Assembly (NCBI GenBank): GCA_903951425.1
Contig: CAJBBX010000128.1
Location: 1 to 64,000 of the forward strand
Source: an uncultured Chthonomonas sp.
GTDB lineage: Bacteria > Armatimonadota > Chthonomonadetes > Chthonomonadales > CAJBBX01
Direction of reading: 5' to 3'
Length of the DNA: 64,000 nucleotides
Below are positions 903-35,890 of the stretch, one piece after another (positions within the stretch are counted from its first letter, which is position 1; each line of letters opens with the position of its first letter). Both the position numbers and the translations under genes were made by a program. The notes under the pieces were generated by a model that did not search any database, had not been told where the DNA came from, and was given only the letters and a program-made list of their open reading frames with translations.

Positions 903-1724
903 GTGCGCTACTCCTTCATGAGCTTCTCGACACCCACGCTGGACCTCCACGCCACCCTGGAGACCGCCGCAGCGCTGGGCTACCAGGGCATCGAGCCACG
1001 GGCCCAGGCAGGTCACGCACACGGCATCGAACGAACCCTCAGCGCCGCCGGACGCATCGGGGTGCGCCGCCTCTGCGAGGGCGCCGGCGTGGAGATCGCC
1101 TGCCTGGCCGTCTCGTGCCGCTTCGCGAACCCGGCCGACGCCCCGGCGCACATGGACGACGCCGAGGCCTTCATGCACCTCGCCGCCGACATCGGCTGCA
1201 GCCGCCTGCGCGTCTTCGGCGGCGCTCTGCCCGGCGGCATGGCCCGCGCCGAGGCCGTGGCGCAGGTGGCCGGGTGCCTGTCGCAGCTCGCCCCGGCGGC
1301 GCAGCGGGAGGGCGTGACGATCTGCCTGGAAACGCATGACGACTGGTGCGACCCCGACAACGCCGTGGCCGTCATGCTGGCTGTGGGCCAGCCGTCCATC
1401 GCCGTGAACTGGGACGTCATGCACACCCAGCGCCAGGGCCGCCACAGCATGTCCGAGGCCTACGCCAAGTTGCGCCCCTGGGTCCGCCACCTGCACGTGC
1501 ATGACGGCGCGGACAGCCTCGGCGAGCTGAAGGTGCTGCCCACCGGGACCGGCGACTTCGATCACCGCGAGGTGATGCGCCTGCTGCAGGCCGATGGATA
1601 CGATGGATACCTGAGCGGCGAGTGGATCGAAGGAACCAGCGACCCCGACTTCCAGGCCGGCCACCTGTCGGGCGAGCTGGCCACGCTCAAGTCGTACGAG
1701 GCCGATCTGCGCCGCGAGGCGTAG
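903..1724 (+). CDS. Sugar phosphate isomerase/epimerase-like TIM barrel protein
   Basis: A 273-residue protein of the xylose isomerase-like/AP-endonuclease-2 TIM barrel family. Proteins of this family isomerise, epimerise or cleave (keto)sugars using a divalent metal. Candidate metal ligands sit at the usual spacing: Glu143 (CLETHDD), Asp171 and His174 (NWDVMH), His198/His200 (HLHVHD) and Glu240 (SGEWIEG). No signal peptide is seen, so it should be cytoplasmic. The start is GTG at 903, chosen because AGGAGG lies about 9 nt upstream. It precedes the secreted DUF1080 protein by 54 nt in the same direction, a pairing common in glycan-using bacteria and consistent with keto-glycoside metabolism. 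The family is clear but the substrate cannot be read from the sequence. Confidence 0.85.
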   Translation: MRYSFMSFSTPTLDLHATLETAAALGYQGIEPRAQAGHAHGIERTLSAAGRIGVRRLCEGAGVEIACLAVSCRFANPADAPAHMDDAEAFMHLAADIGCSRLRVFGGALPGGMARAEAVAQVAGCLSQLAPAAQREGVTICLETHDDWCDPDNAVAVMLAVGQPSIAVNWDVMHTQRQGRHSMSEAYAKLRPWVRHLHVHDGADSLGELKVLPTGTGDFDHREVMRLLQADGYDGYLSGEWIEGTSDPDFQAGHLSGELATLKSYEADLRREA

Positions 1725-1778
1725 CAACCCAAGACACTTCCGGCGCCCGCGCAACCGAGCGCCGACCGAGGAGGACGC

Positions 1779-2501
1779 ATGTTCCGAACAAGTTTCGCCC
1801 TGTTGGCCGCGATGGCCGCCGTAGGTGCCGGCGCCCAGACGCCCGTAGCCCAGATCGAGTCCGTGCCGGCGCCGAAGGTCGCGGGCCTGGTGCAGCTCTT
1901 CGACGGCACAGCGCCGACGCTCACGGCCAACTGGGTCAAGCGCGGCACCGACAAGCCCGCCGAGTGGAAGCTCGACGGAGGGGCCATGCTCGCCCTCGGC
2001 GGCGACATCCAGACGAAGGCCGAGTACGCCGACTTCCAGCTCCACATCGAGTTCCGCACCCCCAACATGCCCGACGCCAAGGGGCAGGGCAAGGGCAACA
2101 GCGGCATCGGCCTGCAGGGGCGCTACGAAGTGCAGGTGCTCGATTCGTTCGGCATCGAGACCCCCGGCAAGGGCGACTGCGGCGCGCTGTACAACCTGTC
2201 CGCCCCGATCATCAACGCCTGCCGACCGCCGACGGTCTGGCAGACCTACGACATCGTCTTCCGGGCAGGCCGGTTTGACGCCGCCGGCGCCATGACCACC
2301 AAGCCGCTCCTCACCGTCATCCAGAACGGCACGGTGGTGCAGAACAACGTGGAAGTGCCGGACATGACGGGCATCCAGTACCAGCAGTTCAAGGGCCCGG
2401 CCAAGTCAGGCCCCATCGTGCTGCAGGACCACGGCAACAGGGTCGAGTACCGCAACATCTGGATCATCCCGCTACCCGAGAAGGGCTCCGACAAGTACTG
2501 A
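1779..2501 (+). CDS. Secreted DUF1080 (3-keto-disaccharide hydrolase-like) protein
   Basis: A 240-residue protein with a signal peptide (about 1-20, ending AGAQ) and one DUF1080 domain, a concanavalin-like jelly roll. Family hallmarks are the FDG start near residue 41, GNSGIGLQGRYEVQVLDSF at 106-124, and the CGALYNLSAP to WQTYDIVF block at 134-161. Some members of this family hydrolyse 3-keto-glycosides; others may only bind sugars. The GGAGG just before the ATG supports the start. Neighbours are the TIM-barrel isomerase upstream and a propeller protein downstream. A keto-sugar role fits the neighbourhood but is inferred. Confidence 0.85.
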   Translation: MFRTSFALLAAMAAVGAGAQTPVAQIESVPAPKVAGLVQLFDGTAPTLTANWVKRGTDKPAEWKLDGGAMLALGGDIQTKAEYADFQLHIEFRTPNMPDAKGQGKGNSGIGLQGRYEVQVLDSFGIETPGKGDCGALYNLSAPIINACRPPTVWQTYDIVFRAGRFDAAGAMTTKPLLTVIQNGTVVQNNVEVPDMTGIQYQQFKGPAKSGPIVLQDHGNRVEYRNIWIIPLPEKGSDKY

Positions 2502-2513
2502 GGGACGCGGGCG

Positions 2514-2548
2514 CCTCCCCTTGCCCGTCGGCTCTGCGTAAGGGGAGG
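2514..2548 (+). terminator. Terminator-like hairpin after the DUF1080 gene
   Basis: A 9-bp perfect stem, CCTCCCCTT (2514-2522) with AAGGGGAGG (2540-2548), has a 17-nt loop. It lies 12 nt after the DUF1080 stop. There is no clear U-run, so it may be an mRNA 3'-end stabiliser rather than an intrinsic terminator. Confidence 0.4.
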
Positions 2549-2586
2549 GTCCGAACTCGGCTCCGCCACAGGGACGGGGATCCCAC

Positions 2587-3750
2587 ATGCCTCAATGCAA
2601 GGCGCCTACTGCGACGACTGCCATGGCTGCAGAGCATCCGGGACCGTATGACAGGCTCCCGGCCGTACGTGAGTACACCGCCGGCGAGCTTGAGGTCTGG
2701 CGGGACGGCAGGCGGGGCATCAGATTCGGAGTCCATCCCCAGTCCCAGCCGGTGCTGAACACCCCCGACCGGCGCGTTACGGCCGTGTTCAGCCGTGGCG
2801 AGGTTCGCTCGGTTCGCGCGACATCGGGCTCGCGCTGCTGGGTCCACTCGGAGCGGGCATACGCGGTCGGCTGGGCCGCCGTGGACGAGGATACCGTGGT
2901 CACGCTGACGCATCGGGTGGTCCGACTCGACCGGCGCGGGAACCTGGTGTGGGCCCATGCCCCCTACCCGGAACAGGGCGAGTGGATTTACACCGCGCCC
3001 ACGGTGTCCGGCAGTCGGGTCTTCTACGGCGATCGAAGGGGCTATCTGAACTGCCTCGACGCGGAGACCGGCAAGCCTGCCTGGTCGGTCCTCACGTCGA
3101 GGGCGCGTAACAACGACGTGAACGCCACGGCCGCAGTTTGGGAAGACCGGGTGGTGGTGGCGACGAACAGCCGCACGCTCCTCTGCTACGAGCAGGCCAC
3201 AGGCACGCGCATCTGGGTGCATCGGCTCGACAACAGCTGCATCTGGCCCCTGGTAATCCGCAACGGGCGCGTCTGGGCAAACACGTATACATCGCTCTGT
3301 GAGGCAGCGCCGGGGACCGGTGAGATCATCCAGAGGTTGCACAGACCGGGCCACGGGATCACCTCGTTCGAGGTGTGCGGCGACACCCTCATTCTTGTCC
3401 TACGGCCTTCGACCGGCCAGTTCAGCCCGACCGGCGAGCCCGCGCACCTGATCGGCATACGGCACGGCGAGGAGGTGTACCGGCGTGAGTACGCCCCGCA
3501 TGTGGCTCCCGACCTCACCGTCGTGCCCGGGACGGGCTGGGTGTACGAGTTCGGCCACCTGGGCATCGGCATCATTGATCCCCGGTCCGGTCAGCGCCTT
3601 GCGAGCATCCGCGGGTTCGGCACAAGCCCCCATGGCCACCCCGACAACCTGACCACGGCCCCGGCGGTTGCCGGCGGTACGATCTACGTCGCGACCTGCG
3701 ATGGCGCCATCTGGGCACTCAGGCATCCCGATGTGGGCGCCGCTGCTTAG
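2587..3750 (+). CDS. PQQ-type beta-propeller repeat protein
   Basis: A 387-residue protein built from PQQ-like blades. Repeats such as FYGDRRGYLNCLDAETGKPAW, LLCYEQATGTRIW and IYVATCDGAIWALR follow the pattern of a strand, then (L/A)-D-x-x-T-G-x-x-x-W. No N-terminal signal peptide is visible, so it may be cytoplasmic, unlike most propellers in this window. No catalytic PQQ or metal-binding set can be assigned, so it is more likely a binding or scaffold propeller than a dehydrogenase. The ATG at 2587 follows a weak GGGGA. It lies 85 nt after the DUF1080 gene and may be transcribed separately because of the hairpin between them. Function unknown. Confidence 0.7.
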   Translation: MPQCKAPTATTAMAAEHPGPYDRLPAVREYTAGELEVWRDGRRGIRFGVHPQSQPVLNTPDRRVTAVFSRGEVRSVRATSGSRCWVHSERAYAVGWAAVDEDTVVTLTHRVVRLDRRGNLVWAHAPYPEQGEWIYTAPTVSGSRVFYGDRRGYLNCLDAETGKPAWSVLTSRARNNDVNATAAVWEDRVVVATNSRTLLCYEQATGTRIWVHRLDNSCIWPLVIRNGRVWANTYTSLCEAAPGTGEIIQRLHRPGHGITSFEVCGDTLILVLRPSTGQFSPTGEPAHLIGIRHGEEVYRREYAPHVAPDLTVVPGTGWVYEFGHLGIGIIDPRSGQRLASIRGFGTSPHGHPDNLTTAPAVAGGTIYVATCDGAIWALRHPDVGAAA

Positions 3751-3866
3751 CTGCGGCGCAGGAACTCCAGACCCCGCCGCCGAACTCCCGTCCATCGCAT
3801 CCTCTGCGCGATTGCGCCGACATGGCCCCCCCACAAGCCACGATGCCTGACTGGAGGTCGCCAAGC

Positions 3867-4931
3867 ATGATCCGACTTGCCGAGTTCGCCGTGGGCGCGC
3901 TGTTCCTTGGCCTGGCGGCGGTGGCCACGGCTTCCCCACCCGGCGCACGCCGGACCAACGGCAACCATGCCGGCCCTACCGACGTGGGCATATGGTACTG
4001 CACCTACTTCCGGCAGGACTGGACCAGCGTGGTAGGCTACCAGAAGGCTAAGCACTACCGTCCGCTCTGCTCCAACAGGCCCGGCGACTTCCGACACCAC
4101 GCCTCGGACGACGTGAAGGTGATTGACTTCCACCTGCGCAAGATGGCCGAGGCAGAGATCGACTTCCTGCTCATTGAGCTGACCCCCGGCGGCCTCGGCG
4201 GCTATCGCAACCCCGGCTGGTCCGATGATGTCTATATGGTCGATTGCGCCCGCGTGGTCTGCAAGCGCATCAAAGCCTGGAACGCGGCCCACAAGTGGAA
4301 GCTCCGGTATGCCCTGGGCGTCTGCACTCACCTCCGGGAGGCCGACCCCTGGGGCGTCGCCATTGAGAAGATCTCCCGAGACGTCTACACTACCTTCTAC
4401 AGCAACCCCGAGTACGGTGGCCCGGCCAGCTACTACCAGATCGACGGCAAGCCGCTCATGGTGAACTACGGCATCCGACTGCGGGAGCTGAAGACCGAGT
4501 GGGACGCCTACACGGGCGACAGGACCTACGGTAGCCGCTTCGTGCAGCGCACCCTCACCGGTTACGCGGAGCCCGGCGAGTATGGCTGGCCCCTGCCGCT
4601 ACATCAGGGCACCCTCCTCCATCCCGAAGTTGAGCTGGTGGAGCCCGGCTTCAACGTCCACCGGCCCAACGAGGTGGAGCCGCGCCAGGGCGGCGACTTC
4701 TACCGCCGATGCTGGCAGCGTGTGCTGGACAACCCGCGCCCGCTGATCGTCATGATCCAGGCCTTCAACGACTACCTCGAGGAGTCGGCCGTCTGGACCA
4801 CCGACACCAACGACCTCGACGAGACCCAGGAGAAGTGGACAGGCCCCGACGACAAGCCGACGACCTCGCTCTACTGGGACCTGACCAAGGAGTACATCAC
4901 CAAGCTGCGGCAGCGCCCGACGCCGAGGTAG
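3867..4931 (+). CDS. Secreted GH99/GH71-like TIM barrel protein
   Basis: A 354-residue protein with a signal peptide (about 1-24, ending ATA-S). The body has the look of GH99/GH71-like endo-acting barrels: an early IWYCTYFRQDW strand, DFLLIELTPGG (likely a barrel strand with an acidic residue), and a late block with AFNDYLEESAVW resembling the family's WNEW-E motif. The true start is taken as ATG 3867, because GGAGG lies 9 nt before it and the signal peptide begins there; an in-frame upstream ATG at 3822 has no such site. The next gene starts about 150 nt later after a hairpin, so this is probably a separate transcript. Substrate unknown; the assignment rests on fold-level resemblance. Confidence 0.55.
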   Translation: MIRLAEFAVGALFLGLAAVATASPPGARRTNGNHAGPTDVGIWYCTYFRQDWTSVVGYQKAKHYRPLCSNRPGDFRHHASDDVKVIDFHLRKMAEAEIDFLLIELTPGGLGGYRNPGWSDDVYMVDCARVVCKRIKAWNAAHKWKLRYALGVCTHLREADPWGVAIEKISRDVYTTFYSNPEYGGPASYYQIDGKPLMVNYGIRLRELKTEWDAYTGDRTYGSRFVQRTLTGYAEPGEYGWPLPLHQGTLLHPEVELVEPGFNVHRPNEVEPRQGGDFYRRCWQRVLDNPRPLIVMIQAFNDYLEESAVWTTDTNDLDETQEKWTGPDDKPTTSLYWDLTKEYITKLRQRPTPR

Positions 4932-5009
4932 GCGCCGGCAGGTCGGGGGCGGCGCTGCAGGTAGACTAGCGGTTGCGGCGCCCCGAGCGAGCGATGAGGG
5001 CAGGAGTCG

Positions 5010-5031
5010 CCGCGGGCGGCTTAACCCGCGG
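5010..5031 (+). terminator. Hairpin between the GH99-like gene and the next operon
   Basis: A 7-bp perfect stem, CCGCGGG (5010-5016) with CCCGCGG (5025-5031), has an 8-nt loop containing TTAA. It separates the 3867-4931 gene from the five-gene operon that begins at 5085. Confidence 0.35.
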
Positions 5032-5084
5032 GAGCCGCGAGGAGATCGAGGGTCCGTCTGCCGGGCCCGGTGGGGGAACCAGGG

Positions 5085-5879
5085 ATGCGAGCCCACTACT
5101 ACCAGCAGTTTGATGCCAACCTCTCACTGGAAGTGCCCGGCGAGGGGTACGGTGGCTGGAAGACGGACGAGCTTGCGGTCGACCTCGAGCGCACCGCCCT
5201 CGTGGTCATGCACGCATGGGAGAACGGCACCCCGGAGCAGTACCCCGGGTGGCACCGGGCGGTGGAGTACATTCCGCGCGCCGCAGAGATATCCCGCGCC
5301 GTATTCCCCGACCTGCTTGCCGCCGTGCGTCGGTCTCCGATGCCCCTGTTCCACGTGGTTGGCGGCGGCGACTACTACAAGCGCGCACCGGGCTACCTCC
5401 GAGCAGTGGAGCTTGCCGGGCCGCCTCCCGCAGCCGCGCCGGCAGGCATTCCGGCCTGCCCGGGCCTGGAGCGCCTCCAGCGCTTCCGCGCACAGAACGT
5501 GTTCGTCGGAGCCCACAACGAATCGGATGTCGCGCGCGGCTTCGCGGCCCTGGACTTCGGCCCGAACGCCCGCCCGCTGGACAGCGAGGGCGTTGCCGAG
5601 AACGGCCACCAGCTCCTCGCGCTCTGCCGGGAAGCGGGCGTCTACCATCTCGTCTACGTCGGTTTCGCCCTCAACTGGTGCCTGCTCCTCTCTCCCGGCG
5701 GCATGGCCGAGATGAGCCGCCACGGCCTGGTCTGCTCCACCATCCGGCAGGCCACAACAGCCGTGGAGAACCGCGAGACGGCCCGCAGCGAGCTATGCAA
5801 GCAGACCGCCCTCTGGCGCGTGGCGTTGGCCTATGGCTTCGTCTTCGACCTGGACGACTTCCTCCAAGGGCTCGGTTGA
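5085..5879 (+). CDS. Isochorismatase-fold (cysteine hydrolase-like) protein lacking the usual Asp
   Basis: A 264-residue protein with the isochorismatase-like outline: a first strand TALVVMHAWENG (37-48) and a late VYVGFALNWCL (190-200), where Cys199 takes the place of the family nucleophile in the GxxTNxC motif. The family's Asp in the ALLVxDxQ strand is replaced by His43, so the classical Asp-Lys-Cys triad is not complete. It may hydrolyse a different bond or be non-catalytic. The ATG at 5085 follows GGGGGA; a GTG at 5070 is an alternative. It is the first gene of an operon: the membrane protein gene follows after 9 nt. Cytoplasmic, no signal peptide. Moderately sure of the fold, not of the reaction. 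Confidence 0.6.
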   Translation: MRAHYYQQFDANLSLEVPGEGYGGWKTDELAVDLERTALVVMHAWENGTPEQYPGWHRAVEYIPRAAEISRAVFPDLLAAVRRSPMPLFHVVGGGDYYKRAPGYLRAVELAGPPPAAAPAGIPACPGLERLQRFRAQNVFVGAHNESDVARGFAALDFGPNARPLDSEGVAENGHQLLALCREAGVYHLVYVGFALNWCLLLSPGGMAEMSRHGLVCSTIRQATTAVENRETARSELCKQTALWRVALAYGFVFDLDDFLQGLG

Positions 5880-5888
5880 GGCTCCATC

Positions 5889-7739
5889 GTGCGCCTTCGA
5901 GTGCTGCTGCTCACGCTTGCCGCCCAGGCAGCATTCATCTGGTGGGTGACGGATAGCGAGATCGTCCAGAGCGTCTACCTGATCTGCTACTCGTTGATGA
6001 TGCCTACGACGCTCTACCTGCTCTGCGGCGGCGCCATCCAGCGCCTGCTCCGGCTGGAGAGGCGCGAGTTCCTCCTCAGCTACATCGTCCTCACCTGCAC
6101 GCTGCCGATCATCGGCTTTGGCGGCTTGCGGTTCTTGATCCCCGCCATGGGCTGGCTCAGCTACTACTCGACCACCCAGCCGCAGTGGATGTCGTACCTG
6201 CCGGGCCTCTCGTCGCTGCCGGTCCTGCACGACGCCGAGGCGATCAGGGGCCTCTACAAGGGAGGCGCGGTACCGTGGCAAGCCTGGGCCATCCCGATCG
6301 GCTTCTGGAGCGCGGTACTCCTGCTGCTAAACGGCGCCTGGCTCGGGCTGGCCGCCTTGATCCACCGCATCTGGATCCACTACGAGCGCCTCACGTTCCC
6401 CATCACCACGCTCCCGCTCGAGATGACCGGCGCCGCCCACGGTCCGTTCCGCCAGCCCCTCTTCCTGCTCGGTGCGGCCATACCGATCGTCCTACAGAGC
6501 CTGCTGGTGCTGCACGACTGGTACCCGGCCGTGCCCGCCATGCAGCTCAAGGTCTTCGACATCCGCGATGCACTCTTCACCTCCTCTCCGTGGAACTCCA
6601 TCCCGAACCTGGGCATCAGCTTCTATCCCATGGCCATCGGCCTCGGGTACTTCATGCCGAGCAGCATCAGCCTGAGCTGCCTGGTCTTCTGGGTGCTGAT
6701 CCGGCTGGCGTACCCGATCGGCTCCATGGCCGGCATTGAGGCCGCCGGCGCCGGCGCGACCCGCTTCCCCTATCCATTTGAGCAGGGCGCCGGGGCCTGG
6801 ATCGCCTTCGCGCTGCTGGCCCTGGCCGGCGTCCGGCACCACTGGTCGCACCTCCTCCAGGCGGCCGGCCCGGTCGAGCGGCGCTCGATCCACGGGCTGG
6901 GCGCCATGGCGGTTTCCTGCATGGCGCTCGTGGCGGCGATGGCCTGCGGAACGGGCATCTCGCCCTGGATAGGCATCGGCAGCGTCGTGATCTACGCAGC
7001 CAATGTGCTCAGCGGCGCACGGGTACGCGCCGAGGCCGGAGGCGTCTGGACCTTCTCCCCGGTCACGTGGACGCCGGGCCGGATCACCGCGGAGGTGTTC
7101 GGCGGACCTCATGGCGGGCCGCGGCCCATGGTCGCCGGAGCCATGTTTGACCTCGTCTACGTCGACATCCGCGGGCAGTCGCTCCCCTTCCTCATGGAAG
7201 CGCTGAAGGTCGGCGAGACCGTCGGCATCCGCTGGCGTTCTGTCCTGCTGTGGGTCGGCCTCATGTCGCTGACGGCGCTGGCCTTCGGCTGGTGGTTCAG
7301 CCTCCAGCAGTTCTACTCGGTCGGTGCAGCGACGGCCAAGAGCAACGCGTATGCCCTGGTGAAGGTGCAGATCGGCATGGGCGAGATGCAGACCATGGCG
7401 CTCCGCCGAGCCGGCTTCGATTATGCCGGGGGCGTCGCCATGCTGTTCGGCGCGGCGGCCACCGCGGCCCTTGCCCTTCTGCGCACCCGCTTCATCGGCT
7501 TCCCGCTCCACCCGGTGGGGTATGTGCTGTGCAACACGTTCACCATGAACAGCTTCTTCGTCCCGACGCTCATCGCTTGGGTGGCCAAGACGCTGGTCCT
7601 GCGGTACGGCGGGCAGGGGCTCTACCACCGGAGTCTGGCCTTCTTCGTGGGGCTGACCATCGGCGACATCGGCATACAGACCGCATGGACCATCATAGGA
7701 CGTGCGTACAACGTGCCTATCTACCAGTTCCTATCGTGA
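5889..7739 (+). CDS. DUF6785-type polytopic membrane protein (paralogue 1)
   Basis: A 616-residue integral membrane protein with about 12 or more hydrophobic segments. It shares a signature with two other proteins in this window (53350-55227 and 59136-61097). Common elements are SPWNS followed by FYPMAIGLGYFMP (mid-protein), GARVRAEAGG (about residue 380), and near the C-terminus FPLHPVGY, then K-x-L-V-L-R-Y-GG and a Y-x-x-SL-x-FF-x-G-x-x-x-GD block. I know this as the DUF6785 type, frequent beside glycan genes in Armatimonadota and Planctomycetota. Function is not established; a transporter role is plausible. The start is GTG 5889 with GAGG upstream, 9 nt after the isochorismatase-fold gene. 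Confidence 0.75.
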   Translation: MRLRVLLLTLAAQAAFIWWVTDSEIVQSVYLICYSLMMPTTLYLLCGGAIQRLLRLERREFLLSYIVLTCTLPIIGFGGLRFLIPAMGWLSYYSTTQPQWMSYLPGLSSLPVLHDAEAIRGLYKGGAVPWQAWAIPIGFWSAVLLLLNGAWLGLAALIHRIWIHYERLTFPITTLPLEMTGAAHGPFRQPLFLLGAAIPIVLQSLLVLHDWYPAVPAMQLKVFDIRDALFTSSPWNSIPNLGISFYPMAIGLGYFMPSSISLSCLVFWVLIRLAYPIGSMAGIEAAGAGATRFPYPFEQGAGAWIAFALLALAGVRHHWSHLLQAAGPVERRSIHGLGAMAVSCMALVAAMACGTGISPWIGIGSVVIYAANVLSGARVRAEAGGVWTFSPVTWTPGRITAEVFGGPHGGPRPMVAGAMFDLVYVDIRGQSLPFLMEALKVGETVGIRWRSVLLWVGLMSLTALAFGWWFSLQQFYSVGAATAKSNAYALVKVQIGMGEMQTMALRRAGFDYAGGVAMLFGAAATAALALLRTRFIGFPLHPVGYVLCNTFTMNSFFVPTLIAWVAKTLVLRYGGQGLYHRSLAFFVGLTIGDIGIQTAWTIIGRAYNVPIYQFLS

Positions 7740-7781
7740 AGTGCAGACGGGGCGTCAACACAGTCGGATGGAGGTGACGGA

Positions 7782-9767
7782 GTGAAGGCCAAGCACGTGT
7801 CGTGCAGCCGGTCGTGGGCCGTCCTTGCGGCGCTTGCAGTCCTTGCGCCGAGCATGAAGGGAGCAGCAGGAGTGGTCACACCCACCGCAGGGATCGGGCA
7901 GGCAACGTTGCTCGGCAAGCCGTGCCGGGCCCGGCAGGTCCTGGGCGGAGCCGTTGTGCGCGATAGGAAGTCGGGCCGCGAACTCTTCGCCATCACCAAC
8001 ATGAACGAGGTCAGCGGCGCCGAACTGATCCTGATCGACTTCGACAAGGACAGGTCCGAGATCTACCGGGCTCCTGCCGGGGCCGGTTCATGGAACGTCC
8101 GCGAGGTCTCAGGCGACCGGCTGGTGATCGGCACGTTCTATGACGGCACGTTCCTCATATTCGACTTGAAGTCCAAGAGGTTCATCAACCACGTTCGGTT
8201 CGCCAAGGAGGAATACCTCTGGAACACCGCCATGGGCGGCGACGGCCGCGTCTACACCGGCACCTACCCCGGCGGCCGCCTTGGAGCGCTGGACCTGGCG
8301 ACGTACACCGTTGAGGACTGTGGAGCGCCGGCCGCGCCGAACCTCTATCTGCGCTACGTTTCGCCGACCCACGACGGGCGGGTGCTCTGTAGCTTCTCAT
8401 CGGAGAAGCCCGTCGAGAAGCTGTACGATCCGCGGACCAAGACATGGGCAGACGTGCCGGAAAGCATCAAGGGCGTCAGCATGGGCGGGGTGTGGGATGG
8501 GCGCTTCATCGCCGGTAAGCGCCTGTTCAATGGCCCGGACTTCACACCGCACCCGCCTGCCTTCCCCGTACCGTCTGCCGACAAGGGCGACTGGTACATG
8601 GACGTCACACTCACCTCCGACCGGTGGCTCGTCCTGCGGCAGGGCAACGCCGTCTACGGTTGGCGCAAAGGCGACGCCACGCTGACCAAGCTGGCCGACG
8701 TCGACCTGCGCGGCGGACGGTACATGGCGATCACCGAGGGCGGCCGCCTGCTCGGCATCCGCGGCCAGGACTACTTCGTCTGCAAGCTGGGCGATACCTC
8801 CCTGGACCTCAGGGCCATACCGGGCGACTCGGACCCCAGGAACCTGCTCTTCCTGCGGGTCGACGAGCGCGGCCGCATTTGGAGCGGCGCCCCGTTTGGG
8901 CAGACGCTCTGCTACCTGGACCCGCGGACCAGGAAGGTCGTGAACACCCGAACGGTCTGCGACGGCGGCGGCGAAGTGTACGACGTTGCCTGCCGCGGCG
9001 GCCGGGTATACGCCGCGGCCTACTCCGGCGGCGACATTGTCGAGTACACGCCCGACCAGCCGTGGGACCAGTGGAACAACCGTAACCCACGCGCACTGGC
9101 CACCGTGGCGCCCGCGTATATCCGCCCGGTGGCAGGCATCGGTTTCGGTCCGGATGGCATGCTCTACTCCGGTTGGATGGCCCGCTACGGCACCTATGGC
9201 GGGGCGGTAGCCATCACCGATCCGATCAGCGGCAAGACCGAGTTGATCGAGAACCCCCTGGGCGAGCAGGCGGTGGAGGGGTTGGCCGTTGATCCGAGGC
9301 CCGATACGCGCGCCGCCTACGTCGGCACCAGCCTCAGCGCCAACGGCCTGCCTGGCAAACGCGGCGAGTCGCCCCGCTTCGGTGCACTCGACCTGGCGAC
9401 TCGCAAGGCGGTCTTCACGCGCACGTTCGAGGGGGCGTCCGGGGTCCGGTCTATCGTCTTCGATCCCGCGACATCGCTGGTGGCGCTGACGGTGGACGGA
9501 CGCCTGCACCTGTTCGACCCGGCCGCGCGCGAGGTAGTCGTCCTCTCGGCCGACGTTCCAAAGGTGAGTGGCTCGATCGCCGTCGGCGCCGGAGGCAAGC
9601 TCCTGTACGGTAGCGGCAAGTCCATCATCGAGTTCCGGATCGCCGAGCGCACTTGGCGGCGGCTGGCGGAGGCGCCCGCGCCGATCGGCAACACGGCGCT
9701 GTCCTCCAAGGGCGACCTGTACGTCTCAGCGGGCCCCGCCGTCTATCGCATCAAGGGGGCCAGGTAG
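7782..9767 (+). CDS. Secreted beta-propeller protein (SMP-30/WD-like), function unknown
   Basis: A 661-residue protein with a signal peptide (about 1-28, MKAKHVSCSRSW then a hydrophobic stretch). The rest alternates short strands with turns such as GGRLGALDLAT, GRVYTGTYPGG, GRIWSGAPFGQTLCYLDP and GGEVYDVACRGGRVYAAAYSGGDIVEYTP, i.e. two propeller-like domains of the SMP-30/NHL type. No catalytic set can be seen, so it may bind or present a ligand outside the cell. The GTG at 7782 is preceded by an almost perfect GGAGGTGA. It lies 42 nt after the membrane protein gene and its stop abuts the ATG of the deacetylase-like gene (0 nt apart), so the three are surely co-transcribed. Confidence 0.7.
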   Translation: MKAKHVSCSRSWAVLAALAVLAPSMKGAAGVVTPTAGIGQATLLGKPCRARQVLGGAVVRDRKSGRELFAITNMNEVSGAELILIDFDKDRSEIYRAPAGAGSWNVREVSGDRLVIGTFYDGTFLIFDLKSKRFINHVRFAKEEYLWNTAMGGDGRVYTGTYPGGRLGALDLATYTVEDCGAPAAPNLYLRYVSPTHDGRVLCSFSSEKPVEKLYDPRTKTWADVPESIKGVSMGGVWDGRFIAGKRLFNGPDFTPHPPAFPVPSADKGDWYMDVTLTSDRWLVLRQGNAVYGWRKGDATLTKLADVDLRGGRYMAITEGGRLLGIRGQDYFVCKLGDTSLDLRAIPGDSDPRNLLFLRVDERGRIWSGAPFGQTLCYLDPRTRKVVNTRTVCDGGGEVYDVACRGGRVYAAAYSGGDIVEYTPDQPWDQWNNRNPRALATVAPAYIRPVAGIGFGPDGMLYSGWMARYGTYGGAVAITDPISGKTELIENPLGEQAVEGLAVDPRPDTRAAYVGTSLSANGLPGKRGESPRFGALDLATRKAVFTRTFEGASGVRSIVFDPATSLVALTVDGRLHLFDPAAREVVVLSADVPKVSGSIAVGAGGKLLYGSGKSIIEFRIAERTWRRLAEAPAPIGNTALSSKGDLYVSAGPAVYRIKGAR

Positions 9768-11531
9768 ATGCCAGGACGCTCCGGTATCCCCATCGCCGTC
9801 TGCGTCGCACCCGATCCGCCGCTGAACGTGAGCAGGACGACGCACTACCCCGGCTACATCCGTGAAGTCATCGCGCACGCCGGCATCTGTTGCGACGAGG
9901 TCGCGCCGGCGGAGCTGCTAGAGCTACTGCCGTCTCTCCGCGTCCTGGTGACGGCGGGCGACCTGGTCCTCTCAGGCGCACAGGCGGACGCCCTCCGGGC
10001 GTGGGCTGCTGACGGCGGCTGCTGGCTGGCCATCGGCGGCGCCTGCGGCCTGCCCGACCTGTTCGGCGCTGCGCCGAAGCAACCTGCCTACTCCAGTTGG
10101 GGCGGCGGCCCCTGTAACCTCGGCGAGGGCTATCTGGTTCCGGACGCCGAGCTCTTCGGCGGTCCCGGTGCGCCGCCATGCCCGCTTCCGCTCCACTTCT
10201 TCGGCGGGCTGGCCGTCCGCGCCGCCGGTGGCGAGGTCCACGCGACGGTCCTGACCGCGCACCAGCAGACCACCGACCGTGCCGGCGTCGTGGACAGCCG
10301 CTCAGGCGGCGGCCTGTGCCGGCTCATCGCTGTGGACATCATGGGCGCCATCGTCCGTATCCAGCAGGGCACGGCGATCACCCGCGACGGCGTGCCCGCG
10401 CCTGACGGCACCTCGCCGGTTGGGGACGGCGTGCTGAAGTCCGACGACGGCGCCGCGCTCGACTGGACGTTCGACCGGCGACCTGTGCCGGGTGTGCCGG
10501 GCTTCTCGGCCTTCCTGCATCCGATCGCAGACCTGTGGCGCGAGTTGCTCCTCCACTCCCTGTTCGACCTCGCGCAGGCCGCAGGTTTGGCGCTCCCCCT
10601 CCTCTGGCTCTATCCCCGGGACCTGCCCGCCATCGGCCACATGTCGCACGACACGGACAACAACGGCCCCGGCGAGGCCGGCCTGCTGCTTGCCACACTG
10701 GACCAAGCAGGCATACGCTCAACCTGGTGCGTTATCGAGCCCGGCTACCCGCCCGATGTCATGGAGGCGATCCGAGCGGCCGGGCACGAGCTTGCCATGC
10801 ACTACGACGCCATGAGCGACGGCCGGCCCTGGGGCGAGCAGGAGTTCGAGCGGCAGTGGCGCGCCCTGGTCGCCGTATTCGGCGGCGAGCGCCCGGCGGC
10901 GAACAAGAACCACTACCTGCGCTGGGAAGGCGACACGGAGTTCTACACCTGGTGCGAGCGCCGCGGGGTTCAGTTCGATGAGTCCAAAGGGGCATCCAAG
11001 ACCGGCGAAGCGGGCATGAACTTCGGCACATGCCATCCTTACTTTCCGGTAGCCCCCGATGGATCGCTGCACGACGTGCTGGAACTGGCGACCCAGACCC
11101 AGGACATCCACGTCTTCGCCCCTCCAGAGCTCCTCGACCCGCTGCTGGCGGCGGCCCTGCGCCACCACGGCGTCATCCACCTCCTCTTCCATCCAGCGCA
11201 CATCCGCACGGCGGGGGTGGCGGAAGCCCTGACCGGCATCGTCGCCAGGTCGCGCGCCATGGGACTTGAGTGGTGGACCGCCGCCCGCATCAACCGGTGG
11301 GAGCGAGCCCGACGCAAGGCCGTCTGGCGCGACTACAAAGTGACCGACGCCGGAGCCACCGTGACGCTCGAGACGCCGGAGCCGCTGCCCGACGCCACGT
11401 TGCTGTGGCTCATGCCCCACGCCGCGCCGAAGCGTCCGGACACAGTAGTCCGCTGGGGACGCCGCTTCGTGTCGATACCCCTCAACGGCCAGGCTACTGC
11501 AGCGCCCCATGGCGACGCGGGCCGCGACTGA
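9768..11531 (+). CDS. NodB-like polysaccharide deacetylase with N-terminal glutamine-amidotransferase-like domain
   Basis: A 587-residue protein without signal peptide. Residues about 1-200 resemble a class-I glutamine amidotransferase-like/ThuA-type fold (VLVTAGDLVLSGAQADALRAW, then CWLAIGG). From about 285 a carbohydrate esterase 4-like barrel follows: GHMSHDTDN (Asp-containing motif 1), a motif-2-like ELAMHYDAM, and a late IHLLFHPAHI resembling the His motif 4. A C-terminal beta-rich tail (about 520-587) completes it. The domain order fits an enzyme that removes N- or O-acetyl groups from a glycan. The ATG follows the upstream stop directly, and the GH95-like gene starts 23 nt downstream. 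The deacetylase domain is fairly sure, the amidotransferase-like domain less so. Confidence 0.65.
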   Translation: MPGRSGIPIAVCVAPDPPLNVSRTTHYPGYIREVIAHAGICCDEVAPAELLELLPSLRVLVTAGDLVLSGAQADALRAWAADGGCWLAIGGACGLPDLFGAAPKQPAYSSWGGGPCNLGEGYLVPDAELFGGPGAPPCPLPLHFFGGLAVRAAGGEVHATVLTAHQQTTDRAGVVDSRSGGGLCRLIAVDIMGAIVRIQQGTAITRDGVPAPDGTSPVGDGVLKSDDGAALDWTFDRRPVPGVPGFSAFLHPIADLWRELLLHSLFDLAQAAGLALPLLWLYPRDLPAIGHMSHDTDNNGPGEAGLLLATLDQAGIRSTWCVIEPGYPPDVMEAIRAAGHELAMHYDAMSDGRPWGEQEFERQWRALVAVFGGERPAANKNHYLRWEGDTEFYTWCERRGVQFDESKGASKTGEAGMNFGTCHPYFPVAPDGSLHDVLELATQTQDIHVFAPPELLDPLLAAALRHHGVIHLLFHPAHIRTAGVAEALTGIVARSRAMGLEWWTAARINRWERARRKAVWRDYKVTDAGATVTLETPEPLPDATLLWLMPHAAPKRPDTVVRWGRRFVSIPLNGQATAAPHGDAGRD

Positions 11532-11554
11532 GGCCACGATCGAAAGGAACCAGC

Positions 11555-14029
11555 ATGGAACACGCACTCACACTGCTCGCCGCCCTCCTGCTGGTGCCTG
11601 TCGTGGCGGCACGACCCCAGCCCGCTCCCGGTAAGCTCCACGTCCTGGAGACCAACCAGCGGCTGCTGACCCTCGATGAGGGCCTGCTGCTCGGTAACGG
11701 CGACCTGTCGGCGAGCATCTACCAGACCGCCGACCGCCTGATCTGGCGCCTCGGCAAGGGCGACGTTTGGGACCGCCGCTGGGACAACAGCGACGACCCG
11801 AAGCCGCTGGACATCGAGGAGCTACGCCGGGGCATCGACCAGGAGAAGTGGAAGGCGGACTACGGCGCGACCATCACCGCCCAGAACGCCAGGACCACCC
11901 CCAAGCGCCTCAAAGAGGTCAGCGTCGACTCGCCGAGCTACTCGCGCCGCTCGACCCCGTGCCCCAAGCCTGCCGGCGAGCTGATCCTGCAGCTACCGGA
12001 GGATGCCGACCTCGTCAACGTCGCCATCAAGCAGCGGCTGGTGATCGAGGAGGCGCGGCACGAGATCACCTACACATGGCCCGGGGGCCGTGAGCTCAAG
12101 GTGGAGTCGTTCATCCACCCGGATCGCAACGCCCTGGTCGTCCACTGGCGCATGAAGGAGTGCCCGGTCTGGCTCTCGCTGGTTCGCTGGGCCGACCCGA
12201 AGCTGGAGGAGTACGCCGCCAGGCTGGTGGCCGACACGCGCAACGGCATCTACCGGGACCTCTACGCCTCGCCAAAGAACACGCCCCTGCCCCCGCCGGC
12301 CGTGCGCCGCGGAGCACCGGCACCGTCGGCGGCCCAGCTCTTCATCGAGCAGGCCCTTCCCGCAGAGCCCACGTTCAAGGACGGGTTCCAGTACTGGCTG
12401 GTCCCGACCATCGACAAGGGCAAGGCCGAAGCCGTCGATATGACGCCCATCCGCGAAGCCCGGATCGCGATCACACCCGAACCCAAGGCCACCGAGGGCT
12501 GGCTGTCGATCGCCGTGCCCACCACCAGCGATCCCGGCGGCCCGGCGGCCGAGTGCCGGCGACTGATCGAGGCCCTCGGCGCAGACCCCGCGGCCGCCAT
12601 GCAGCGCTGGCGCGAGGAGACGCTGGCGGCCGGGCGGCAGTTCTGGGCCCGGTCCAGCGTATCGATCGACGACCCGGTGCTGGAGAACCAATGGTATGCG
12701 AACCTCCACATCCGGCGTTGCTGCTACCGCGCCGGCAAGACGCCGCCCGGCCTCTACCTGACGCCGCTTATCGGCGACTACTCGGTGTGGCATGGCGATT
12801 ACCACTGGAACTACAACTTCCAGGCGCCATTCTGGGGTAGCTACGAGGCCAACCAGATCGAGACCGGCGACGCCTGCTTCGTGGCGCTGGACCATGCGAT
12901 GCAGATGGGCCGGATCATCGCCGACAAGTACTACCACTGCCGCGGCGCGTTCATCCAGCTCACCAGCTACCCGATCCACGCCACCGACGACGTCTACGGA
13001 GCCGGCCCGCTCTGTCGTATGGCCTACATGACGGGATGGGCGGCTCAGCCCTTCTGGTTGCGCTACCGCTTCACCATGGACAAGGCCTGGCTCCGGACAC
13101 GAGGGTACCCGGCCATCAAGGAGCTCGCGCTGTTCTGCGGCGACTTCCTGCGCAAGGGGCCGGACGGCCTCTACCACGCCTACCCCTCCATCGAGGAAGA
13201 GAAGGCCTGGACGGGCAAACCGGAGGACTACCATGACCAGCCGCAAGTCCTCCAGCACCTCCGCTACTGCCTGCGCACAGCCATCCGGGCCGCGCAGGAG
13301 CTGGGAGTGGACGCCCAGCTTCGCGCCGAGTGGCAGGAGCGACTGAACAAGATTGCGCCGGACAGCCGCGAGTACTTCGCCGTGAAGTACAATCCGGCGC
13401 TGACCGGCCTGGCCAAGTGGTGCCAGGACGTCAGCCCGCCGCAGTTCGGCGTCGGCAAGCCTTACGCGCGCCGCGACGCCCAAGCGGTCGCCGGGCCCTC
13501 GCCGGTGGTGGGCCGCTTCGGCTCCTGGTGGCTGGCGCACCCCGGCAGCGCCCTGACCGCCCTGCGTGACGGTAGCTGGGTCCCGGAGCGCGACTACCCC
13601 GAGTACCGCAAGGTGCTGCAGACGGCCCACCTCAACGGGATGATCTTCGCGCGCAGCAGCATGGCCTACCAGACCTGGGTCTTCGGCGAGGAGCTGGCGA
13701 CCATGGCTCCCCTCCAGGAGATGATGCTCCAGAGCTGGGACGGCATCCTGCGCGTCTTCCCCGGCTGGCCGCGCGACGTCAAGGCGAGCTTCCGCGACCT
13801 CAGAGCTGAGGGAGCATTCCTGGTGAGCGCTTCATGGGAGGGCGGCAGAGTGGCCGCGTGGCAGGTGAAGAGCGAGTCCGGCGGCACGTGCCGGCTCTAC
13901 CCGGCGTGGGACGGCGGTGTCACAGTGACCGACAAGGAAGGGTATGCCGTTCCGGTCAAGGCCGAGGCCGAAGGAACGCTCAGCTTCGAGACGCAGGCCG
14001 GCCACGCCTACACCCTCGAGCGGGGATAG
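11555..14029 (+). CDS. Secreted GH95-like glycoside hydrolase (paralogue A)
   Basis: An 824-residue secreted enzyme; signal peptide about 1-20. Three blocks match the GH95 plan (alpha-L-fucosidase/galactosidase, (alpha/alpha)6 barrel): an N-terminal GNGDLSASIYQTADRLIW (the family has GNGRLGAMVFG), GDYHWNYNFQAPFWGSYEAN where the Asn-rich catalytic segment sits, and LQEMMLQSWDGILRVFPGWP, the counterpart of the family's LLQSHxGxIxLLPALP. The ATG at 11555 is chosen for its GAAAGGAA site and the signal peptide; the frame is open further upstream over the deacetylase gene. Last gene of the operon, followed by a hairpin. A close paralogue lies at 33351-35813. Sugar specificity cannot be read. Confidence 0.75.
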   Translation: MEHALTLLAALLLVPVVAARPQPAPGKLHVLETNQRLLTLDEGLLLGNGDLSASIYQTADRLIWRLGKGDVWDRRWDNSDDPKPLDIEELRRGIDQEKWKADYGATITAQNARTTPKRLKEVSVDSPSYSRRSTPCPKPAGELILQLPEDADLVNVAIKQRLVIEEARHEITYTWPGGRELKVESFIHPDRNALVVHWRMKECPVWLSLVRWADPKLEEYAARLVADTRNGIYRDLYASPKNTPLPPPAVRRGAPAPSAAQLFIEQALPAEPTFKDGFQYWLVPTIDKGKAEAVDMTPIREARIAITPEPKATEGWLSIAVPTTSDPGGPAAECRRLIEALGADPAAAMQRWREETLAAGRQFWARSSVSIDDPVLENQWYANLHIRRCCYRAGKTPPGLYLTPLIGDYSVWHGDYHWNYNFQAPFWGSYEANQIETGDACFVALDHAMQMGRIIADKYYHCRGAFIQLTSYPIHATDDVYGAGPLCRMAYMTGWAAQPFWLRYRFTMDKAWLRTRGYPAIKELALFCGDFLRKGPDGLYHAYPSIEEEKAWTGKPEDYHDQPQVLQHLRYCLRTAIRAAQELGVDAQLRAEWQERLNKIAPDSREYFAVKYNPALTGLAKWCQDVSPPQFGVGKPYARRDAQAVAGPSPVVGRFGSWWLAHPGSALTALRDGSWVPERDYPEYRKVLQTAHLNGMIFARSSMAYQTWVFGEELATMAPLQEMMLQSWDGILRVFPGWPRDVKASFRDLRAEGAFLVSASWEGGRVAAWQVKSESGGTCRLYPAWDGGVTVTDKEGYAVPVKAEAEGTLSFETQAGHAYTLERG

Positions 14030-14206: not shown

Positions 14207-14488
14207 ATGACGGAGTCCATCGACGTTGCGGCTGCAAAGAGCCACTTCTCGGACCTGCTCAACCGAACTGCGTACAACCGCGAGCGCTTCATTATCAGCA
14301 GGCGCGGTAAGCCGGTCGCCGCCCTCGTAAGCGCCGACGACCTCGCTCGGCTCGAGTCCGTCGTTGAGCCCGCAGGTCTATTGGCCGTCGCAGGGCTGTT
14401 CGGTGACGCGCCGGACTGGACGGCGGAACTGGACCGGGCGGTAGAGGTCCGCCGGCGCGCGGTTGACCGACCTGTTACTCTGGGATGA
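14207..14488 (+). CDS. Phd/YefM-family antitoxin
   Basis: A 93-residue antitoxin. It has the typical N-terminal dimerisation and DNA-binding half: VAAAKSHFSDLLNRTAYNRERFIISRRGKPVAALVSADDLARLE (7-50), where the turn R-R-G-K-P-V-A-A-L is the family hallmark. The C-terminal part (about 55-93) should be the disordered toxin-neutralising tail. The ATG at 14207 has GGAGG upstream; a TTG at 14192 is also in frame but worse placed. The stop overlaps the toxin start by four bases (ATGA), so the two are translationally coupled. The operator palindrome just upstream points to autoregulation. Confidence 0.9.
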   Translation: MTESIDVAAAKSHFSDLLNRTAYNRERFIISRRGKPVAALVSADDLARLESVVEPAGLLAVAGLFGDAPDWTAELDRAVEVRRRAVDRPVTLG

Positions 14489-14895
14489 GCTACCTGTTCG
14501 ACACTGACGTCCTGAGCAACCTGCTCAAGCAGACGCCATCTCCAAACCTGGTCCGCAGACTGGCGGATGTGCACCCATCCGACCAGTTCACCAGTTCCAT
14601 CACCGTCGGCGAGATGGTGTACGGTGCACTCCGAACCGATCGGCAGGTCGAGCTACTCTCGCGGCTCGAGCGTGACGTCTGGCCCAACGTCCGCGTCCTC
14701 CCGTTCGGTCACGCCGCCGCGTACCACTACGGCCGGGTGCGAGCCGGCTTGGAGCGATCGGGCACGCCCCTTGCTGAGCCCGACCTTCGCATCGCGGCCA
14801 TCGCCATTGCCAGCAACCTGACGCTGGTCACCGGCAACACCCGGCACTTCTCACGGGTGCCGGGCCTTGCGGTCGAGAACTGGCTGGCGCGGTAG
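14485..14895 (+). CDS. vapC: VapC-type PIN-domain ribonuclease toxin
   Basis: A 136-residue PIN-domain protein that should cleave RNA, probably tRNA or rRNA, when not neutralised by its partner. The acidic metal-binding residues are present at the usual places: Asp6 and Asp8 (LFDTDVLSNLL), Glu43 (VGEMVYG), Asp100 (PDLRIAA), with Asn118 in TGNTRHF, the place of the fourth family residue. Length is normal for VapC. It overlaps the antitoxin gene by 4 bp. The pairing of a VapC toxin with a Phd-type antitoxin rather than VapB is common. No damage is seen, so the module is probably active. Confidence 0.9.
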   Translation: MSYLFDTDVLSNLLKQTPSPNLVRRLADVHPSDQFTSSITVGEMVYGALRTDRQVELLSRLERDVWPNVRVLPFGHAAAYHYGRVRAGLERSGTPLAEPDLRIAAIAIASNLTLVTGNTRHFSRVPGLAVENWLAR

Positions 14896-33350: not shown

Positions 33351-35813
33351 CTAGCCTGGCCCCATGGCGTAGCGGCCGCCGGGCGTGGTGGCGAAGGTGA
33401 CGACGCCATCGGCCTGCGTGGCCCGGATGGGCTTGCCCGCGCCGTCCGTTACCCGGACCTTGGGCCATGGTGCGTAGGCGCGGCAGGGGCCGCCCTTCTC
33501 GCTGATCACCTCTGCCGTCGTCACGGCGCCCTTGGCCCAGCTCGCGCTGACCAGGAAGGCGCCGTTGGCCCGCAGGGTGCGGAACGAGGCATCGAGCGTG
33601 CGGGGCCAGGCGGGGAAGATGCGCAGGGCGCCGTCCCAGCTCTGGAGCATCATCTCCTGCAGCGGAGCCAGAACGCCCAGCGACTCGGTCCACGCGCCGG
33701 AGTGGCCGTAGCTGCCCACGGACATGGCCCAGAGCAGGCCGTTTGGGTGGCGCCACCGTTCCGCCAGGGCGCGGAAGACCGGGAAGTCGCGGTCGGCGAT
33801 GAACTCCCCGCCACGGAGCCGCCCCATGACGCCCCACGGGTACTGCCCGTAGTACCAGCTATGCGAGCCGTCGCCCACGTTGGGCCATGGCTTGCCGTCG
33901 TGCGTGGCCGGCTGGGGCTTGTAGGGCCTGCCGAAGCCGAACTCGGGCGCGTTGGCCTCGTAGCAGCGCTTCTCCTCGCCGGTGAGCACTCGGGGCGGGT
34001 TGCCGTCGTCGCCGGCGCAGTGGTCCAGCCGATCCTGCCACGCGGCGCGGAGCTCCGGGTCGGCCTTCAGCGCCTCGGATGCACGGATGGCGGTGCGGAG
34101 GCAGTGGCGCGCGAACTCCATGACCTGCGGCCGGTCGGTGAAGTCCTTGGGGTTGCCCGAGAACCCGTCCTCGCCCTGGTTGCTGGGGAAGGTGTGGTAG
34201 AGGCCGTCGGCGCCCTTCTTCATGAAGTCGGTGTAGAAGAGCGCGCAGTCGCGGATGGCCGGGTACCCCGTGGTGCGGAGCCACGCCTCGTCCAGCGTCA
34301 CCTGGTAGCGCCACCAGTACTGGCTGATCACCCAGCCGGTCATGTAGGCCATGCGGCCCATGGGCACGCAACCCAGCGGATCGTCCTCCATGACGGCGGG
34401 GTAGCCGGTGAGCTGCACGAACGAGCCACGCGCGCCGTAGTAGTCCCTGGCGATCTTGCGGCCGACGTCGAGGATGGGCTTCATGGCCGCGAAGTAGGCG
34501 TCGCCGACCTCCAGGTGGTTGGCCGTGTAGTCGCCCCAGAAGGGCTCTTGCAGGTCGTAGTTGGTGTGGTAGTCGCCGTGCCAGTGGGAGTAGTCCTGCA
34601 CCGTGCTGGGCAGGAAGAGGCCAGGCGGGTAGCAGTCAGGCCGGTTGGTGCAGCGCCGGGCGTGGAGCGTCTCGTACCAGAGGCCCTCGATGAGCGGATC
34701 AGCCACCGTGATGCCGGATTTCGCCCAGAAGGCGGCCGATGCGGTGCGGTTCTCGGCCTCCCAGGCGGCAGCTGCCTTCTCCGTCTCGGCGCCCGTAGCG
34801 CGGATCGCCTTGAGCGATGCCAGCGCCGCCTTCTCCTCCCCGGTGGCCACGGCGACGGCCAGCGTGCCGGCGGCGGCCTCGACGCCGGGCATGATGTGCA
34901 GGCGCGCTTCACCGGATGCGGCGGTATCGGCCGGCTCCACGGCGACGCCCGCTGCCATCGGCGCCATCATGCAGTGGAAGCCGCTGGGATAGGTGGGATC
35001 TGCGGGGAAGGGCTGGTCGACGATGCGAAGCCCCTCCTCCAGGCGCAGCGCGGGCTTCGGCAGGGGTGAGCACTTGGCGGCCGGGAAGCCGCTGAAGGCG
35101 CCGTGCCGCGCCTCGCCGATGAAGCGCGCTCCGAACTCCTGGATGGTGGGATCGGCCCACCGGTAGAGCGAGAACCAGATCGGAGGTAGCGAGTTGCCGG
35201 TGCGCACCTCGGGCTTCCAGCCGGTCACCTTCCAGCGCACGAGCAGCACGTTGGCCGATGGCGGGATGCAGCAGTCGAGGCGCAGGGCCACGCCGCTGCG
35301 CCAGGTGCAGTCGATCTCGACGCGGCCCTCCTCGATGACGAGCCGCTGCCGGATGCGGAGCCCCGGCTGGTCGGCGGGGAGTTGCAGGGCCAGTTCGCCC
35401 ACGGGCTTGGGGCAAGGGTAGGGGCGCTCGCGGTAGCTGGGCGGCACGGCCTGGCAGATGTCCTTCATGCGGGCGGGGTTCTTCGTGCCGCGCGTAGCCT
35501 CCACGGGTCCGCCGTAGGGCGGGCACTTCCAGCCCTCGTCAGTGATTCCCCTGGCGACCTCGTCGATGTGGGCGGGCTTCGGGTCGTCGGAGCGGTCGAT
35601 GCGCCGATCCCAGACGTCGCCCTTGCCGAACCTCCAGACGATCCGGTCGGCGGTCTGGTAGACGCTGACAGAGAGGTCGCCATTGCCCAGCAGCAGCCCA
35701 TCCTCGGGCGTCAGGAGCCGCTCGTTCAGCTCAATGGCGTGCGGCGCGGCTGAGGCGGCAGGCGCCAGTGCGAGCGTGAGGGCCGCCAGGGCCAGGAGCG
35801 AGCAGGTGAGCAT
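33351..35813 (-). CDS. Secreted GH95-like glycoside hydrolase (paralogue B)
   Basis: An 820-residue secreted protein; signal peptide about 1-23 (ASAAP). It is a clear paralogue of the protein at 11555-14029: GNGDLSVSVYQTADRIVW, KGDVWDRRIDRSDDPKP, GDYHTNYDLQEPFWGDYTAN, and LQEMMLQSWDGALRIFPAWP match it nearly word for word. These are GH95-type landmarks (alpha-L-fucosidase or galactosidase). The start at 35813 has GGGGAGG upstream and begins the signal peptide; an open frame reaches 35918 but without site or function. It is the last gene of the symporter-GH106-GH95 series on this strand, with a 211-bp gap before it that contains a hairpin. Confidence 0.75.
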   Translation of the reverse strand: MLTCSLLALAALTLALAPAASAAPHAIELNERLLTPEDGLLLGNGDLSVSVYQTADRIVWRFGKGDVWDRRIDRSDDPKPAHIDEVARGITDEGWKCPPYGGPVEATRGTKNPARMKDICQAVPPSYRERPYPCPKPVGELALQLPADQPGLRIRQRLVIEEGRVEIDCTWRSGVALRLDCCIPPSANVLLVRWKVTGWKPEVRTGNSLPPIWFSLYRWADPTIQEFGARFIGEARHGAFSGFPAAKCSPLPKPALRLEEGLRIVDQPFPADPTYPSGFHCMMAPMAAGVAVEPADTAASGEARLHIMPGVEAAAGTLAVAVATGEEKAALASLKAIRATGAETEKAAAAWEAENRTASAAFWAKSGITVADPLIEGLWYETLHARRCTNRPDCYPPGLFLPSTVQDYSHWHGDYHTNYDLQEPFWGDYTANHLEVGDAYFAAMKPILDVGRKIARDYYGARGSFVQLTGYPAVMEDDPLGCVPMGRMAYMTGWVISQYWWRYQVTLDEAWLRTTGYPAIRDCALFYTDFMKKGADGLYHTFPSNQGEDGFSGNPKDFTDRPQVMEFARHCLRTAIRASEALKADPELRAAWQDRLDHCAGDDGNPPRVLTGEEKRCYEANAPEFGFGRPYKPQPATHDGKPWPNVGDGSHSWYYGQYPWGVMGRLRGGEFIADRDFPVFRALAERWRHPNGLLWAMSVGSYGHSGAWTESLGVLAPLQEMMLQSWDGALRIFPAWPRTLDASFRTLRANGAFLVSASWAKGAVTTAEVISEKGGPCRAYAPWPKVRVTDGAGKPIRATQADGVVTFATTPGGRYAMGPG

Positions 35814-35890
35814 GGTGGGACCTCCCCGTGGGCCGCTGTGGCAGCGCACCATGCAAGGGTACCTTGCGGCGGACACGGCGGGAGTGCGGC

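Follow-up and report, generated by a model that had tools for sequence, protein, structure and literature searches.

Does a run of closely spaced genes form one functional unit, and what would that unit do? We consider these questions for five genes, g1–g5, in a 64,000-nucleotide stretch (hereafter, the window) from the 6.1-Mb genome of an uncultured Chthonomonas sp. of the phylum Armatimonadota (contig CAJBBX010000128.1). A first-pass annotation of the window had suggested, as an inference, that all five form a single system for importing and processing glycans. From the comparison of genomes, we conclude that the natural unit is g1–g4, rather than g1–g5, and that g5, which encodes a GH95-family enzyme, is only a neighbor. 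Our leading proposal, which is tentative, is that g1–g4 are an uptake-and-breakdown cassette for a nitrogen-containing compound, set between a GH71-like gene (u5) and the GH95 gene. The five open reading frames (ORFs) are contiguous on the + strand, with gaps of 9, 42, 0, and 23 nt, just as had been described, and because orthologs are found across the Armatimonadota at 50–75% identity, we take them to be real genes.

The first-pass annotation had staked its idea on the five genes being neighbors in related genomes. We found the order g1–g5 in just one other genome, G002, which is from the same genus. By that test, the five-gene version of the idea fails. In another genome from the genus (G001, 98% complete), u5 (91% identity) is followed after 34 nt by the GH95 gene (93% identity), with g1–g4 absent between them; searches of G001 did not find g1, g3, or g4, or any close g2. 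The sequence of the 23-nt gap before g5 (TGAGGCCACG...AGGA..CCAGCATGG) is retained in G001 right behind u5. Over shared stretches of DNA, the window is 92–94% identical to G001 and about 89% identical to G002. As the more distant G002 has g1–g4 and the nearer G001 lacks them, the simplest history is that g1–g4 were lost as one block in G001, with the direction taken from identity and not from a tree. Also, most genomes with g1–g4 have no close GH95. For judging operon membership, tight gene spacing alone can mislead.

Each end of the block carries a short stretch similar to that at the other end (positions 4899–4922 and 11488–11511), and the alignments to G001 overlap by 24 nt there. The loss of the block may have had its endpoints in these stretches.

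Gene presence across 121 Armatimonadota genomes shows that g1–g4 are kept or lost together, with a weaker pattern for g4 outside of families f1 and f6. (The gene sets were compiled by hand from search tables with identity and E-value thresholds, genes in other genomes were called by simple ORF choice, and the tests ignore the tree.) The associations were strong for g1–g2 (odds ratio 58, P = 2e-11), g1–g3 (P = 4e-13), and g2–g3 (P = 3e-17), and also for g4 with g3 (P = 1e-9), g2 (P = 9e-8), and g1 (P = 1e-6). Two genes from outside the cassette join this pattern: a DegT aminotransferase, with g4 (P = 9e-14), and a heparinase-II/III-like gene, with g1 (P = 9e-9). GH95 did not co-occur significantly with g1–g4 (P = 0.10–0.29). 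Within f1, the window's own family, g1, g3, and g4 co-segregate: of 12 genomes, 7 have all three and the other 5 have none, and g2 is present in 6 of the 7. When f1 and f6 are removed, g1–g2, g1–g3, g2–g3, g4–DegT, and g1–heparinase remain associated (P < 1e-3), whereas g1 and g4 do not. So, by these counts, the genes fall into two tighter blocks, {g1, g2, g3, heparinase} and {g4, DegT}, which join in several families. The strong co-occurrence of g1–g3 extends to genomes in which they are unlinked.

Gene order in other genomes gives a similar picture. g1 and g2 adjoin in G004 and G042, and in G004 a heparinase-like gene precedes g1. In clade f6, g3, g4, and DegT are found in a consecutive run. 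g4 and DegT adjoin in further genomes, among them G006, G011, and G104, and are fused in G007 into a single ORF of 1016 amino acids (L210:8848-11895). Outside of the Armatimonadota, g1 homologs have g3 and/or g4 close by in L297, L306, L312, L321, and L329 (Chloroflexi and one unnamed bacterium) and in L342 (Phycisphaerales, Planctomycetota). We saw g4 near g1 in 5 cases outside the genus, versus about 0.3 expected by chance in 80 loci (our own estimate, which supposes 1–2 copies of g4 per ~5-Mb genome). The immediate co-directional neighbors of g1 from across phyla included, of 82, DegT (7), heparinase II/III (5), PhyH (4), sodium symporter (4), Gfo/Idh (3), xylose-isomerase-like (3), and DUF6785 (1). 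Carriers recur beside g1, of differing kinds. The window's genome itself encodes orthologs of DegT (66% identity) and of the heparinase-like protein (48% identity).

(In the f6 loci L047, L049, L056, L058, and L060, the gene after g1 encodes a sensor histidine kinase that has PAS and receiver domains. Near g1 homologs in L312 and L297 there is an M55 D-aminopeptidase gene, similar to DppA, at L312:7744-8538 and L297:7769-8563, along with amidohydrolase and DegT genes, and L312 also has peptide-type ABC transporter genes.)

The combination of isochorismatase-fold, DUF6785, and NodB genes is repeated, by distant relatives, in a second operon of the window's genome, on contig C110. From DegT through a g1 paralog, an APH kinase, a DUF6785 protein, and a NodB deacetylase to Gfo/Idh, the gaps between its genes are 5, −4, −4, 2, and −4 nt. 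The g1 paralog is 31% identical to g1 (by hhalign) and, like g1, has a histidine at the place of the catalytic aspartate (see below). The NodB protein is not a close relative of g4, as aligning the two gave no significant match. Judging by coordinates alone, a g1 paralog lies near a DUF6785 paralog in G000, G002, and G007, but G006, G009, and G011 have the two on separate contigs. Overall, a functional link among g1–g4 is supported by co-occurrence, by neighborhoods in other phyla, and by this second operon, but the membership of GH95 is not.

What might the four proteins do? g1 had been described as an isochorismatase-fold protein without its aspartate, and that description stands. Although g1 itself has no match in a Pfam scan, Isochorismatase matches 15 of the 32 members of its alignment (best E = 2.9e-5), and hhalign relates g1 to RutB of E. 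coli with a probability of 93%. An AlphaFold2 (AF2) model of g1, with a predicted local distance difference test score (pLDDT) of 96, has an isochorismatase-like fold, with RutB as the best fold match (E = 1e-9, probability 1.00), followed by the biuret hydrolase BiuH and the triuret hydrolase TrtA. The catalytic triad of this family is Asp-Lys-Cys (PMC7948467). In g1, Cys199 is invariant and aligns with the nucleophile position of RutB, but His43 is invariant at the place of the aspartate (32 of 32 sequences) and no lysine is invariant across the alignment. g1 also differs from RutB, BiuH, and TrtA in having a longer N-terminal part and a large insert, and it forms its own branch. There is no evident signal peptide. 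Proteins with 56–72% identity to g1 (L278–L357) are found, by record name, in Armatimonadota, Latescibacterota, Planctomycetota, Verrucomicrobiota, Chloroflexi, Gemmatimonadetes, and Lentisphaerae. Identity this high across many phyla suggests transfer between phyla as well as a strict function. That a catalytically altered branch is maintained at about 60% identity across so many phyla suggests a specific reaction.

g2 is, as first described, a DUF6785-type membrane protein (DUF6785, E = 8e-86; DUF6784, E = 6e-28), and it is predicted to adopt the OPT-transporter fold. Carriers of the OPT (oligopeptide transporter) superfamily are known to take peptides and metal chelates as substrates. An AF2 model built from 17 sequences (pLDDT 83; predicted template modeling score 0.87) has the OPT fold in a search of PDB, where entries for YS1 are the only ones with E < 0.001; the match to barley YS1 (PDB 7wst, E = 2.7e-9) extends across the whole chain, with TM-scores of 0.65 and 0.66. 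The matched YS1 structure holds an Fe(III)-deoxymugineic acid (DMA) complex. YS1 has been described as a proton-coupled symporter whose mechanism is elevator-like (PMC9691689). g2 is just 14% identical to YS1, has its own Pfam entries, and has no direct sequence match in PDB, and at E = 0.01 the OPT profile (PF03169) matches neither g2 nor any of its paralogs in the window's genome. PF03169 does score above the Pfam cutoff on three DUF6785 relatives (L358, L359, and L369), which are 28–42% identical to DUF6785 proteins from the window's genome. By analogy with the modeled fold, g2 would be an importer.

The earlier suggestion of glycan import did not gain support: g2 has an OPT fold, and carbohydrate enzymes are not clearly enriched among the neighbors of the genome's other DUF6785 copies. 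The window's genome has undergone a striking expansion of DUF6785, with about 24 copies, of which two more lie within the window (53350–55227 and 59064–61097). By Pfam counts, carbohydrate-enzyme families were slightly more numerous among the neighbors of 20 copies than in 19 control regions, without a clear difference, so we set aside the idea that DUF6785 is a general glycan carrier. We found no papers on DUF6785 or on DUF6784, and none that treat isochorismatase together with Armatimonadota and polysaccharide.

g3, described as a secreted propeller, has a profile that matches propeller chains in PDB. A signal-like start is seen in most Armatimonadota and is apparently absent from the copies in family f15 and in Chloroflexi.

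g4 is probably a divergent NodB protein that acts in the cytoplasm. A Pfam scan of g4 itself and scans of g1–g4 against NCBIfam gave no matches, and searching PDB sequences with g4 gave matches at chance level only. Polysacc_deac_1 (PF01522), which is the profile for NodB and carbohydrate esterase 4, does match 6 of the 16 members of the g4 alignment at E ≤ 0.1 (best 8.9e-5). A few relatives have weak matches to DUF4350, ThuA, or GH42M, consistent with an extra amidotransferase-like domain. The invariant residues are D295, D297, H345, D347, R385, D404, H475, and H478, and the Asp/His pattern of the barrel appears to be retained in part. Motif 2 of NodB proteins is HTxxH, and their metal site is Asp-His-His. 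Of the invariant residues, D295, D297, H345, and H475 bear on this site, but motif 2 in g4 resembles HYDAM, without the second histidine. g4 also differs from NodB in its extra domain, in its linkage or fusion to DegT, and in having no evident signal peptide.

Putting these together, g2 would act as an OPT-type symporter, coupled to protons, and bring in a small compound that contains nitrogen. In this lineage, the g3 propeller may bind or process this compound outside of the cell. Once the compound is in the cytoplasm, g1 would cleave an amide bond with its cysteine, probably with His43 in place of the aspartate, and g4 would remove an N-acyl group. The DegT aminotransferase, encoded elsewhere, could then remove or move the exposed amino group. 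We favor an acylated nitrogen compound because of the amide-cleaving and N-deacylating folds and because of the DegT, heparinase-like lyase, M55, amidohydrolase, and ABC transporter genes. The substrate would most likely be an N-acylated amino sugar or a sugar-amide fragment, perhaps released by the heparinase-II/III-like lyases, whose genes often adjoin g1 elsewhere. This is the least certain step, being guessed from folds and neighbors. GH95 and the genes upstream would form a glycan operon of their own, with the cassette set within it. A broader and somewhat unlikely proposal is that Armatimonadota and several other phyla have in common a catabolic module, so far undescribed: carriers with the OPT fold (DUF6785/DUF6784) would import N-acylated sugar compounds, and their nitrogen would be stripped by DegT, a NodB protein of the cytoplasm, and a new isochorismatase-fold branch that uses Cys and His.

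Several observations weigh against the cassette. Its co-occurrence statistics ignore the tree, and outside of f1 and f6 the association of g1 with g4 is not significant (P = 0.14). Many genomes carry g1 without g2–g4, and other combinations are common. Although G002 carries g1–g4, it lacks the heparinase-like gene. The other DUF6785 copies in the window's genome have mixed neighbors. Finally, NodB proteins and DegT enzymes serve in biosynthesis as well.

A second possibility is that g2 acts like YS1 or the peptide OPTs, and that g1 and g4 dismantle a siderophore or peptide with amide or N-acyl groups. The sole confident fold match for g2 is to YS1 with its Fe(III)-DMA, enzymes with the isochorismatase and NodB folds can act on amides, and an M55 D-aminopeptidase is encoded near g1 homologs in L297 and L312. 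This seems unlikely because the heparinase-like, xylose-isomerase-like, and Gfo/Idh genes near g1 indicate sugars, and no metal-handling genes were seen beside the cassette.

Third, the genes could be biosynthetic: DegT and Gfo/Idh would make an amino sugar, NodB and g1 would modify it, and the membrane protein would export or flip it for a cell-surface glycan. DegT and Gfo/Idh are indeed among the neighbors, and the linked DegT is closest to aminotransferases of amino-sugar biosynthesis in NCBIfam, but far below their cutoffs. We consider this improbable because the cassette has no glycosyltransferase or nucleotide-sugar gene, because heparinase-like lyases adjoin g1, and because L312 has a peptide-type ABC importer and an M55 peptidase near g1. 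Also, to our knowledge, the OPT-type carriers with a known function are importers.

It seems just as improbable that there is no functional unit at all, and that the genes, which would share a lifestyle and spread by horizontal transfer, adjoin here by accident. The genes are unlinked in most genomes and g1 is found in many different surroundings. However, pairs of them adjoin again in distant phyla, g4 is fused to DegT, the paralogous operon has the same combination, and g1–g3 are retained or lost jointly even if scattered.

Finally, that GH95 cuts a glycan outside of the cell, g2 imports the product, and g1, g3, and g4 process it is the least probable, despite the shared strand, the tight spacing, the identical order in G002, and the signal-like starts of both GH95 and g3, and we rejected it because of the missing block in G001, the co-occurrence figures for GH95, and the lack of a close GH95 in most genomes with g1–g4.

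The proposed cassette resembles the SusC/SusD-type polysaccharide utilization loci of Bacteroidota in that a carrier, exported proteins, and cytoplasmic enzymes are encoded in one operon. In contrast to those loci, its carrier is an OPT-fold protein, GH95 lies outside of the unit, and there is no SusC/SusD pair among nine scanned genes of the window. If our reading is correct, then DUF6785 and DUF6784, which are uncharacterized Pfam families that are common in Armatimonadota, gain a fold and a testable transport role, and the parts of this small module are open to knockout and assay.

Table 1. Features of the g1–g5 region of the window, and the second operon
Feature	Coordinates	Strand	Evidence or remarks
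g1, isochorismatase-fold, 264 aa	5085..5879	+	relatives' Pfam matches, hhalign to RutB, AF2 fold matches
g2, DUF6785+DUF6784 membrane protein, 616 aa	5889..7739	+	Pfam, AF2 model vs YS1, OPT profile on relatives
g3, beta-propeller, 661 aa, signal-peptide-like N-terminus	7782..9767	+	PDB profile matches, ortholog N-termini
g4, probable divergent NodB-fold, 587 aa, N-terminal amidotransferase-like domain	9768..11531	+	Polysacc_deac_1 in relatives, invariant residues
g5, GH95-family enzyme, 824 aa	11555..14029	+	Pfam GH95
u5, GH71-like gene upstream of g1	3822..4931	+	weak GH71 match below curated cutoff
u5-g1 gap, 153 nt, left end of block absent in G001	4932..5084	+
g4-g5 gap, 23 nt, right end of block absent in G001	11532..11554	+
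Divergent operon	L388:11871-18800 (G000:C110, about 61370-68300)		LacI-type regulator gene upstream

The run of + strand genes begins before g1, with genes at 903–4931, and no consensus promoter was found in the 153-nt gap that follows. In g5, the GH95 catalytic (E = 1.6e-27) and C-terminal (E = 9e-12) domains both score above the curated cutoffs. A second GH95-type gene in the window (33351–35918, − strand) is 45–47% identical to g5 and has no homologs of g1–g4 alongside. Just after g5, at 14207–14895, there is by eye a pair that resembles a type II toxin-antitoxin system, with a Phd-like antitoxin and a PIN-domain toxin that overlap by 4 nt.

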